This document shows, piece by piece, positions 35,805 to 38,090 of a stretch of DNA of 64,000 nucleotides (positions are counted from its first letter, which is position 1; every line of letters starts with the position of its first letter). The notes under the pieces were generated by a model. It was not told where the DNA came from and searched no databases. It saw nothing but the letters and a program-made list of their open reading frames with translations. A program made the position numbers and the translations under genes. Source of the DNA: Nocardioides okcheonensis (GTDB lineage Bacteria; Actinomycetota; Actinomycetes; Propionibacteriales; Nocardioidaceae). Location of the stretch: the NCBI RefSeq assembly GCF_020991065.1, contig NZ_CP087710.1, forward strand, positions 2,294,001 through 2,358,000. Direction: 5' to 3'.

Positions 35805-36062
35805 TCACGAGTAGCGGTGGCTCTTCGCCGCGTGGCCCTTCTCGCGGGTGCAGGTGCGGCCGCTCATGTTGCGGTGGCCGCACAGCTCGTCCGTCGCCTC
35901 GGCGGCCGCGGGCGCGGCGGCAGGCTTGGCCCGAGCCGCCGGCGTCCGCTCCGCCGGGGGCGAGACCGGGGCCGGCCGCCGCGCGGGCGCCTGAGCCGCT
36001 CGCTTCTGGGCCTCGGCGTAGCGGGCCTCGCGCATCGCGCGCAGGGCGTTCTCCTTGCTCAT
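35805..36062 (-). CDS. 85-residue Cys/His-rich protein downstream of the reverse transcriptase
   Basis: The N-terminus (KENALRAMREARYAEAQKRAA) is a probable charged helix, the middle is a low-complexity Ala/Pro linker (about 28-58), and the last 25 residues hold C61, H63, C71, H77 and H82, in CGHRNMSGRTCTREKGH, which looks like a small zinc-binding fold. TAGGGT lies 17 bases before the ATG. It follows the RT gene by 59 bases on the same strand and may be its partner protein. I know no family that settles its function. Confidence 0.7.
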   Translation of the reverse strand: MSKENALRAMREARYAEAQKRAAQAPARRPAPVSPPAERTPAARAKPAAAPAAAEATDELCGHRNMSGRTCTREKGHAAKSHRYS

Positions 36063-36121: not shown

Positions 36122-37432
36122 TCACCGGCTCCAGTCGACCGCGCGGTGGGCCTCCAGCAGCCGGGCGCCGCGCACCGGGTCGTGCTGGGCGACCCACACG
36201 ATCCGGCCGCGGAGGTGGTCCTCGAAGGCGACCACGCCCGCGCGGTTCTGCGTGCTCGGGCCGAAGCGGGCGCAGTTGTGCAGGATCGCGCGCAGCAGGT
36301 CGACCTCCTCCCGGGCGACGCGCGGCGCGTCGTTGACCACGAGCCCGGCGAGCCGCTGGCGCCCGGCCCGGGGCATGACGCCGGTCTTGCGCGGGTTGAG
36401 CCGGAAGCCCTCGTCGCGCACGACCACCTCGACCGCGTCGAGCAGCCGCGACGTCCCCGTGCCCCAGCCCCGCTCTCCCGAGAAGGCCAGGTCGTCGGCG
36501 TAGCGGGTGTAGCGGCCACCCCACGAGCGCGCCAGCGCCGTGAGCCGTACGTCGAGGCCGAACGCCGCGAGGTTGGCCATCGCCGGCGACGTCGGGGCTC
36601 CCTGGGGCAGGTGGGGGGCCGCGAGCCTCCGGCCGAGCCGCCAGTGGGCGTCGAGCAGCGAGTCGTCGGCGGGCCGCGGGACCGACCGCCAGGCCGCGCG
36701 CGGCAGCACGGTGGTCACCAGCCCGGCCAGGGCGTGCGCGACGGGCTCGGGATAGCCGGCGGAGCGCCAGATGCCGTAGACCCGCGAGACCGTCACGCTC
36801 GCGAAGAACGCCTCGAGGTCCAGGCGCAGGACCACGCTGCGTCCGGCGTGGGGCGCGGCGTACGACCGCACGGACCCGCCGGGGCGGAAGCCGCGGGCCG
36901 CGTCGTGGGGTGGGATCCGGCCGGCCAGCTCGCGCAGCAGCCGACGCTGGAGGGCCTTGAGGCGCGGCTTCGGCGCCTCGAGGACCCGGATCGCGCCGCT
37001 GGGAGCCGGGCGGTGGCTGATCCGGTAGTGCTGCAGGGGCACGGCGGACGCGTCGCGGGCGAGCCTGCGGGGGTCGGAGAACCAGTCGAGCTCGGTCGCG
37101 GTCAGGCCGAGGAAGCCGGCGAGGTCGGCGAGGGTGTCGAGCTCCGGCAGCCGCCAGCGGTTCGCCACCATCCGGGTCTGCGCGACCGGCTGGGCCAGAG
37201 GCGCGGCCGCCCCGGCGCGGGCGGCGGCGGGGCGCGACGCGACGTTGGTCGCCAGCTCACGGGGCCGGTCGAGCGGCGGGCGGGGGTAGAGCGCGAGGGT
37301 CTGGCGCGCCAGCGGGCGCAGCCACGCGGGGCGTCGTCCCAGCAGGCCGGCACCGCTCGCCACCAGCCCCGGCTCGGTCCACTCCCCGCCCAGGAAGGCG
37401 GCCGCGAGGGCGCGCGCGAGGTCGGGACTCAC
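36122..37432 (-). CDS. Retron-type reverse transcriptase
   Basis: A 436-residue RNA-directed DNA polymerase. Catalytic parts in order: LRLDLEAFFASV with the first aspartate (D205), LPQGAPTSPAMANL (275-288), and YADD (311-314), then LNPRKTG (345-351). The retron-lineage marks are present in altered form: YAAPH (191-195) where retrons have NAxxH, and LAG (361-363, in RLAGLVVN) where they have VTG, followed by RAILHNC. A 90-residue N-terminal extension precedes the polymerase. There is no maturase or integrase domain. The GTG at 37432 is chosen because the frame above it is not protein-like and an inverted repeat fills that space. Confidence 0.9.
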   Translation of the reverse strand: MSPDLARALAAAFLGGEWTEPGLVASGAGLLGRRPAWLRPLARQTLALYPRPPLDRPRELATNVASRPAAARAGAAAPLAQPVAQTRMVANRWRLPELDTLADLAGFLGLTATELDWFSDPRRLARDASAVPLQHYRISHRPAPSGAIRVLEAPKPRLKALQRRLLRELAGRIPPHDAARGFRPGGSVRSYAAPHAGRSVVLRLDLEAFFASVTVSRVYGIWRSAGYPEPVAHALAGLVTTVLPRAAWRSVPRPADDSLLDAHWRLGRRLAAPHLPQGAPTSPAMANLAAFGLDVRLTALARSWGGRYTRYADDLAFSGERGWGTGTSRLLDAVEVVVRDEGFRLNPRKTGVMPRAGRQRLAGLVVNDAPRVAREEVDLLRAILHNCARFGPSTQNRAGVVAFEDHLRGRIVWVAQHDPVRGARLLEAHRAVDWSR

Positions 37433-37458
37433 GAGCGGGCCGGGACCGACCCGGCGAG

Positions 37459-37629
37459 GTGCGGCAGCGCGCCTCGACCTGTCCCGTCGTGCGCGCGATC
37501 TCCTGCAGCGAAGCGCAGCGCGTCGCGCGCGGTGCTGAGCCCGGACGTACCGGTGGTCCCCGGGGTAGCCCCGGGGAGGCCGACCGATGACGCGCACCGG
37601 TCCGCCGTCTCGAGCTCGCGCTGCCGCAC
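37459..37629 (-). ncRNA. Candidate retron msr-msd non-coding RNA
   Basis: This 171-base segment upstream of the RT gene is bounded by arms 37617-37629 and 37459-37471 that pair perfectly over 13 bp, with a further TCGAG/CTCGA pair (37609-37613, 37473-37477). Read on the minus strand, an AGC follows the first arm, as in retron RNAs that carry the branching G. Inside are a 9-bp hairpin with a 3-base loop (37557-37577) and an 8-bp hairpin whose arms are 37523-37530 and 37491-37498. The RT start lies 26 bases after the second arm. Inferred by layout; not folded with software. A 66-codon frame also crosses it (see rejected items). Confidence 0.6.
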
Positions 37630-37635
37630 GCGGGA

Positions 37636-37641
37636 ACCCTA
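37636..37641 (-). promoter_or_regulatory. -10 element (TAGGGT) for the candidate retron RNA
   Basis: On the minus strand TAGGGT is followed by 6 bases and then G at 37629, the first base of the inverted repeat arm. The same hexamer-to-start spacing is found before presumed leaderless genes in this window, so transcription can be expected to start exactly at the RNA's first base. No clear -35 box is seen. Confidence 0.45.
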
Positions 37642-37673: not shown

Positions 37674-38090
37674 TCAGCGTCCCCGGCGCCAGACCACCAT
37701 CGACTGGCCGACCGCTTGGTGCAGGACCGGCAGCTTGTTGGCCGTCTGGCCGGGGGCCGAACGGGCGGCCAGCAGGCGGCGCAGGGCGTCGACCTCTGCG
37801 ACCAGCTCGTCGTTGCGCGCCCGGAGCGCGTCGACCTGGTGCTCCAGCGCCATGATCCGGCGCACGCCCTCGATGCCGATGCCGGAGCTGGTGAGGTCGG
37901 CGATCTCGCGCAGCCGCTCGAGGTCGCGGTGGGAGTAGCGCCGACCGCCACCGCCGGTGCGGCCCGGGGCGATCAGCCCCATCCGCTCGTAGGCGCGCAG
38001 GGTCTGCGGGTGCAGGCCGGTGAGCTCGGCCGCCACGCTGATGACGAACACGGCGGCGTCGGGGTCCGGGGTGAACGGCGTCGACGTCAT
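37674..38090 (-). CDS. hspR: MerR-family heat shock repressor HspR
   Basis: A 138-residue repressor. The MerR-type helix-turn-helix reads VFVISVAAELTGLHPQTLRAYERMGLIAP, followed by the wing GGGRRYSHRDLERLREIADL and a coiled coil (about residues 80-112) for dimerisation. In Streptomyces, HspR binds HAIR sites and needs DnaK as co-repressor. It is the last gene of the dnaK operon, 10 bases after dnaJ. HAIR repeats stand upstream of dnaK and clpB in this window, so both are expected targets, including its own operon. Confidence 0.95.
   Translation of the reverse strand: MTSTPFTPDPDAAVFVISVAAELTGLHPQTLRAYERMGLIAPGRTGGGGRRYSHRDLERLREIADLTSSGIGIEGVRRIMALEHQVDALRARNDELVAEVDALRRLLAARSAPGQTANKLPVLHQAVGQSMVVWRRGR

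Follow-up and report, generated by a model that had tools for sequence, protein, structure and literature searches.

The DNA analysed here, called the window throughout, is a 64-kb stretch of the Nocardioides okcheonensis genome; all coordinates are positions within it, and the retron features lie on its minus strand. The gene in question (36122..37432, minus strand) encodes a retron-type reverse transcriptase (RT) of 436 aa and is intact, with an RVT_1 domain (PF00078, E 1.4e-17) and the motif YADD; Pfam identified RVT_1 and no further domain in this protein. The top PADLOC models for the RT were RT_other (PDLC02949, 558.8 bits) and RT_outgroup (PDLC03740, 525.8 bits), both near full-length. 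These two are its best family matches, and the PADLOC hit table gives neither an RNA nor a partner for them. When the RT was compared with the PDB by sequence, the nearest solved structures were retron RTs, with the Ec86 RT in first place (E about 3e-28). The domain, PADLOC and PDB matches together place the RT, with its catalytic YADD, in the retron group; retron NCBIfam models also match it, at scores below their curated cut-offs. A phage origin of the RT was considered and found no support, the best viral-contig match being 34%.

Of 294 genomes searched in the family, 41 carry the RT, including 32 with a full-length gene (71-100% identity), two with a fragmented one and seven with remote partial matches. 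In G044 and G271 the RT is split into pieces; in G044 (L033, L052) there are two pieces, and the retron RNA upstream of them seems intact by eye. Thirty same-genus RT loci were fetched, the window locus among them, where "same genus" refers to the genus label attached to the genomes (Nocardioides).

Upstream of the retron, and outside it, lies a gene for a MerR-type regulator (37674..38090, minus strand), which follows genes read by eye as dnaK, grpE and dnaJ and which we take, by its position, to be hspR. The downstream neighbour (35805..36062, minus strand) encodes an 85-aa protein with a conserved C-terminal CGHRN.SGRTCTRE.GHAAKSHRYS motif; roughly half of the 30 loci have it next to the RT, and its spacing to the RT stop changes mostly in threes. 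This gene was rejected as a retron partner, because it is a common gene of the family, occurring in 136 of 294 genomes as against 41 of 294 for the RT (counts from equal-sized genome draws, with the same genomes where listed). Examination of the RT and of the gene that directly follows it revealed no partner or effector gene beside the RT.

The msr-msd RNA and its conservation

Upstream of the RT lies a 171-nt stretch (37459..37629) which an earlier note on this DNA had read as the msr-msd RNA of a retron. It is bounded by arm a1 (37617..37629, GTGCGGCAGCGCG) and arm a2 (37459..37471), which are perfect complements of each other over 13 nt; the first three bases of a1 are the GTG of a leader frame described below, and a2, in pairing with a1, covers this GTG. 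A 5-bp inner extension of a1 (37610..37614) has its partner at 37473-37477. Enclosed by the arms are an msr hairpin of 10 pairs (helix 2, 37578..37606), a 9-bp hairpin with a 3-base loop (37557..37577), which is the most widely conserved element, an msd hairpin of 8 bp and 6 bp with an internal loop (37491..37530), and a small hairpin before a2 (helix 8, 37475..37489). The 5-bp extension and helix 8 share bases and are therefore mutually exclusive.

The 13-bp repeat, its 5-bp extension and the 9-bp and 8-bp hairpins all lie where the earlier note had placed them. That note had taken the length and placement of the arms as its main support. When the 400 nt ahead of the RT were dinucleotide-shuffled 2000 times, 27 of the shuffled sequences contained a 13-bp inverted repeat of this span, so the arms alone are weak and the homologues decide. 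The 64-kb window as a whole contains five arm-like inverted-repeat pairs at four places. The single-sequence fold of the RNA, in which the leader start codon is paired (a point against the reading favoured below), is modestly better than that of shuffled sequences (z -2.36, with 3 of 200 as good). Rfam returned no match in the window, and the RNA is single-copy in its genome.

In all 30 same-genus loci, a homologue of the 171-nt RNA sits directly upstream of the RT, without insertion or deletion. The consensus fold comprised 55 pairs, and the 13th arm pair was then added for scoring. Paired cells reached 98.2%, against 96.4% in shuffles and at most 48.6% with a slid partner. Nine pairs were changed on both sides (5.0 in shuffles, at most 4 when slid), as were 35 cells (10.9 in shuffles, at most 12 when slid), while one of the five covariation measures, that of further pair types, was not clearly above the shuffles (26 against 23.7, a value reached by 58 of 500). 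Helix 2 has four pairs changed on both sides, and the 9-bp and msd hairpins are likewise drawn from the consensus fold and its covariation. Helix 8 belongs to the consensus fold and never varies, and it therefore offers no covariation evidence; neither does the 5-bp extension, which is paired in 98.6% of cells, because its changes are one-sided only. Among the 29 distinct sequences, at least 28 retain each of 12 arm pairs, and the 13th forms in 16. Since ten of the 13 arm pairs are invariant in the genus, the proof of arm pairing comes from distant loci. Covariation in homologous loci beside close RT relatives, which the earlier note had proposed as a check, is thus present, and with the homologue in 30 of 30 loci and its covarying helices, the identification of the 171-nt stretch as a retron template RNA is supported at the level of sequence comparison.

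PMC6868368 describes retrons that share with this locus a retron-group RT, the order 5'-msr-msd-3' followed by the RT, and paired 5' and 3' arms. Also in common are msr hairpins of about 7-10 bp, an RT-Eco3-like hairpin of 9 bp with a 3-base loop, and an msd hairpin, and a 9-bp stem with a 3-base loop is given there as the binding site of RT-Eco3. The earlier note had regarded an AGC after the first arm as a further mark of this layout; AGC is not conserved, occurring at 37616-37614 in two of the 30 sequences. Directly after the AGC position, TCGAGACGG is invariant in the 30 loci. The invariant CGAGA (G at 37609) resembles the CAGA and GAGC variants of the TAGC-like priming motif, and the 5-bp extension ends immediately before its second G. 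According to PMC6868368, the priming guanosine is either part of the arm or its last base. Because AGC is unconserved and CGAGA invariant, and given the end of the extension and this arm rule, the guanosine at 37609 is the more likely candidate, and we predict it to be the priming (branch) position from the invariant columns together with the position rule of PMC6868368.

A reading frame through the RNA

The earlier note overlooked an open frame that coincides with the RNA and ends on the RT start codon. This leader ORF (37429..37629) runs for 66 codons from GTG to TGA. The G of its GTG is the first base of the RNA (37629), the frame is open through the whole RNA, and its stop overlaps the RT start in the sequence GTGA (37432-37429). 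The leader stop overlaps the RT start in all 30 same-genus loci, as NTGA in 28 and as TGATG in two (L008, L017). A -10-like box of the form TANNNT (TAGGGT, 37636..37641) precedes the RNA at a distance of 6 nt, and in the 30 loci such a box invariably lies 6-7 nt before the GTG; a promoter role of the box would agree with PMC3898074. According to that study, 73% of the primary start sites of M. tuberculosis have a TANNNT motif whose centre lies 7-12 bp ahead of them, about a quarter of the genes are leaderless, and ATG and GTG are similarly frequent in leaderless and other genes. The earlier note had held that homologues keeping a protein frame here instead of the RNA would refute its reading; a frame is indeed kept, but alongside the RNA and not in its place.

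An open leader is in itself little evidence, because the DNA is GC-rich and the other two frames through the RNA have stops in only 8 and 5 of the 30 loci. Ten different distances occur between the starts of the RNA and the RT, with at least 17 changes on the RT tree (one FastTree protein tree, midpoint-rooted), none of which shifts the phase. On the same tree, the gap between box and GTG toggles between 6 and 7 nt with at least seven changes. The spacer between the RT stop and the next gene, used as a control in 16 loci, showed at least 10 changes, 8 of 10 by threes, with two phase changes. Arguments from phase only are weakened, because this control spacer is also more phase-keeping than expected; with the mod-3 control unclean, the frame argument leans more on the rule of box plus handover with its shuffles (below), frame contrasts, fusions and box-gap changes.

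A rule drawn up after the pattern had been noticed requires an ATG or GTG that has a TANNNT 4-9 nt ahead of it and a frame that stops on an RT start codon or fuses to the RT; the start codons considered in the frame analysis were ATG, GTG and TTG. The rule was applied to 111 loci (36 same-genus and 75 others), 65 of which came from an 80-locus wider set and 46 of which were further ones. The counts leave out 15 of the 80 wider-set loci (match past residue 20, or contig end too close), as well as L033, L048, L050, L051 and L052, and L001 and L213-L229 (repeat places or other searches). Leader frames seen by eye in L034, L043 and L050 were not confirmed by the script and were excluded from the counts. 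Three of the 36 same-genus loci (L053, L055, L056) are apparent second records of L008, L006 and L027. In L034, an order-level relative, tandem repeats of about 18 nt, GGGGAGTGTCAGGCTGAC, were seen by eye between the retron RNA and the RT.

The rule held in 35 of the 36 same-genus loci, where shuffles gave 0.8 on average and 3 at most, and in 20 of the 75 loci outside the genus, where they gave 1.8 on average and 5 at most; the failure of the other 55 counts against the leader reading. The control consisted of 60 runs with the stretch from -400 to -95 shuffled. The sole same-genus miss, L057 (Nocardioides sp. B-3), has its overlap start one base off the aligned RT frame, perhaps through a frameshift in the RT start region. 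Handover in the right frame was counted at 35 same-genus loci, against 1 and 0 in the two wrong frames, and at 16 other loci, against 1 and 1, and fusion in the right frame at four, against 0 and 0. With looser boxes the handover counts for the other loci became 25 against 3 and 1 and those for fusion 7 against 0 and 1; with the loosest boxes they were 27 against 5 and 2, and 8 against 0 and 4. Records of Myxococcus, Archangium, Labilithrix, Arthrobacter (L082), Frigoribacterium, Agreia, Microbacterium, Pseudonocardiales and Acidimicrobiia were among those positive by the rule, and none of the tested loci of Acidobacteria (8), Planctomycetota (7) and Burkholderia/Paraburkholderia (5) satisfied its strict form; looser boxes recover L066, L076 and L102 among these three groups. 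Stop-start overlaps are ordinary in operons, which counts against a special leader reading. In a control of RT loci on viral contigs, 11 of 79 had a boxed ORF ending on a start in the RT frame (0 and 1 in the wrong frames), so that such overlaps also arise otherwise; those in the viral control come perhaps from ordinary upstream genes.

Arms, hairpins and gene layouts in distant relatives

Arms of at least 12 nt within 3 nt of the leader start were found in 15 of 21 distant loci, whereas 40 shuffle runs gave 1.0 such loci on average and never more than 4. This search was confined to mismatch-free arms within 3 nt of the leader start, and the arms of the fused loci escaped it. The distant arms differ in sequence yet pair, at 12 of 12 positions in L069, 14 of 14 in L068 and L045, and 15 of 15 in L060. 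The arms of L082 form 17 Watson-Crick pairs out of 19, and L075 and L083 have arms of 8 nt only. In four fused loci the arms pair at 16 of 17 positions, with one mismatch and G-U pairs allowed. The pairing of arms that is characteristic of retrons is thus seen in the genus pairs, in the distant arms and in the fused loci.

In 61 of 65 loci of the wider RT set, a script detected a stem of 7 bp or more closed by a 3-base loop, a number that includes at least two non-homologous hairpins (L059, L094). The recurrent hairpin, with a stem of 8-9 bp, is mostly of the CTCCGGGG-NNN-CCCCGGGG type, with compensated changes, and its hosts belong to Actinomycetota, Acidobacteriota, Planctomycetota, Myxococcota, Burkholderia and others. 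Standing before nearly all tested RTs of the clade (L053-L132), the CTCCGGGG-NNN-CCCCGGGG hairpin is a candidate for a new RNA family.

The leader is coupled to the RT, either by a stop overlapping the RT start or by fusion, in three layouts. In the first, as in the window, the handover lies past a2. In the second, it lies within the RNA: the leader of Dactylosporangium L060 and L062 ends in TTGA, 85 nt before the a2 end, and the RT frame then runs through the remainder of the RNA, a2 included. L083 resembles this layout and has weak arms. In Actinoplanes L090, the leader TGA is directly followed by a GTG in the RT frame, and in L081 the RT frame opens with TGA-TTG, the leader from the RNA start having stopped 19 nt earlier. 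These Dactylosporangium and Actinoplanes loci (L060, L062, L081, L090) have an RT frame that opens in the middle of the RNA, with a2 inside the RT coding sequence.

The third layout is a fusion, in which the RT shares one reading frame with the GTG that opens the RNA; it was found in the Curtobacterium-type loci L120, L123, L125 and L132, whose fused ORF has 494-497 codons, the first 54 covering the msr-msd. Beyond this GTG, the frame of L120, L125 and L132 offers its next ATG, GTG or TTG only at 249, 90 and 90 nt past aligned RT residue 1, which corresponds to RT codons 84, 31 and 31 and leaves none in codons 1-30 (counted from the place aligned with residue 1 of the window RT); L123 has an alternative TTG at -42 and a GTG at +9. 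The translated hairpin (SPGxPRG) forms the N-terminus of 42 of the best 120 among 5630 relatives of the fused protein, at nine different distances from the RT domain; these N-termini are gene-caller predictions, and other listed relatives are annotated from later starts.

A probable dual role as template RNA and message

The combination of box, frame and arms suggests that this RNA, the msr-msd of a retron of the RT_outgroup clade, is probably both the template and a leaderless mRNA started from TANNNT, with a handover of ribosomes to the RT, a peptide that appears to have no function of its own and a putative switch formed by the arms. Alternatively, it might be an ordinary retron RNA whose RT starts independently at 37432, the leader frame being a by-product of a GC-rich RNA free of indels. 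In favour of this, the leader lacks any third-position excess, and the spacer before the RT seldom has a stop in any frame. Relatives in other phyla also manage without a leader frame. A loose Shine-Dalgarno scan was positive at several loci (e.g., L056, L069, L072, L077, L111 and L115), including some with overlapping RT starts (L056, L069, L077), and Arthrobacter L113 has, by eye, a purine-rich stretch before a possible RT start. However, an independent start does not account for the phase held through at least 17 length changes, for the contrast between right and wrong frames, or for fused loci that have no other usual start codon, and we regard it as unlikely.

Whether the peptide is selected was judged from three sources. 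In the window's genus, the differences per site at codon positions 1, 2 and 3 were 0.135, 0.107 and 0.106 in the RNA, compared with 0.095, 0.070 and 0.378 in an 80-codon segment of the RT; the third-position excess that marks a selected protein product is absent from the leader in this genus. In the window's genus the shared hairpin has the first base of its loop at codon position 2, in Curtobacterium at position 1, which puts the leader frames of the two genera one base apart. In an AlphaFold2 model of the fused protein, the prediction was poor for residues 1-51 (pLDDT about 35) and good for most of the RT (mean 80.6, pTM 0.57). The codon positions, the frame difference and the predicted disorder speak against the leader as a functional peptide, a reading that was rejected; what is conserved is the RNA structure with a frame held open, and the leader peptide itself appears to be without function. 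On the same grounds it is very improbable that the 171 nt are a small protein gene instead of an RNA, encoding a leader protein that works with the RT. A frame open in 30 of 30 loci and coupled or joined to the RT would suit such a gene, but codon-position differences that are near even, unlike those of the RT segment, a frame that is off by one base in the shared hairpin, a disordered N-terminus in the fused protein and the covariation of the RNA do not. Hardly any credence can be given to a decayed retron with its RNA or RT inactive by now, for although the RNA is single-copy, no adjoining partner gene was found, and the spread is patchy (41 of 294 genomes, with the RT in pieces in G044 and G271), the 436-aa RT is intact with its YADD and shows a strong purifying pattern, and the RNA covaries.

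In the favoured reading of the RNA as both template and message, transcription from the TANNNT promoter would start at or next to the first base of a1. As the 5' end of the transcript carries an RTG start codon, it would also be a leaderless mRNA. Ribosomes would start at the GTG, read through the whole msr-msd and reach the RT via the stop-start overlap; in the Curtobacterium type, they would continue straight into the RT and make a single protein. Pairing of a1 with a2, or binding of the RT, would bury the start codon and shut translation. Because arm pairing closes the start codon, template folding and RT synthesis are proposed to exclude each other. The arms would thereby form a switch between a translated RNA, from which the RT is made, and an arm-paired RNA, which is the substrate of the RT; RT synthesis would in this way be tied to unused template, and RT and template would be kept in balance. 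We lean slightly towards a wider version, in which the template of many actinobacterial and some myxobacterial retrons is a leaderless mRNA, ribosomes have to traverse the entire msr-msd before RT is made, folding and RT synthesis are mutually exclusive, and the Curtobacterium-type msr-msd lies inside the RT coding sequence.

A related arrangement is known from group II introns, where the intron-encoded protein LtrA binds the RNA at the start site of its own reading frame and acts as a repressor of its own translation. In both cases the RT message and the structured RNA bound by the RT are one molecule. The ORF of group II introns sits in a loop of the ribozyme, whereas the frame described here spans the whole structured RNA. 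With the leaderless mRNAs of actinobacteria (PMC3898074), the locus shares a TANNNT at start-site distance before ATG or GTG; it differs in having a structured template RNA as its leaderless coding part and a peptide that is unconserved. The accessory ORFs of retrons in the available text of PMC6868368 sit between the msr-msd and the RT, or past the RT, and an ORF through the msr-msd itself is not described in that text. Here, in contrast, the first base of the RNA belongs to a start codon, the frame ends on the RT or continues into it, and no adjoining accessory gene was found. A search of titles and the starts of abstracts, with most subscription papers and preprints outside its coverage, found no description of a translated msr-msd, a result that speaks only weakly for novelty.

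Retrons usually serve in defence (PMC8934634). If a retron RNA is translated, RT and template would be made in a fixed exchange, with feedback built in. This could explain why the RT start is annotated inconsistently in the Curtobacterium group, where starts upstream of, inside and downstream of the RNA all occur. In editing tools built on such retrons, detaching the RNA from the RT could cost the RT its start codon. An aligned, covarying RNA is also now available for this retron clade, which stands in the PADLOC hit table with no RNA of its own.
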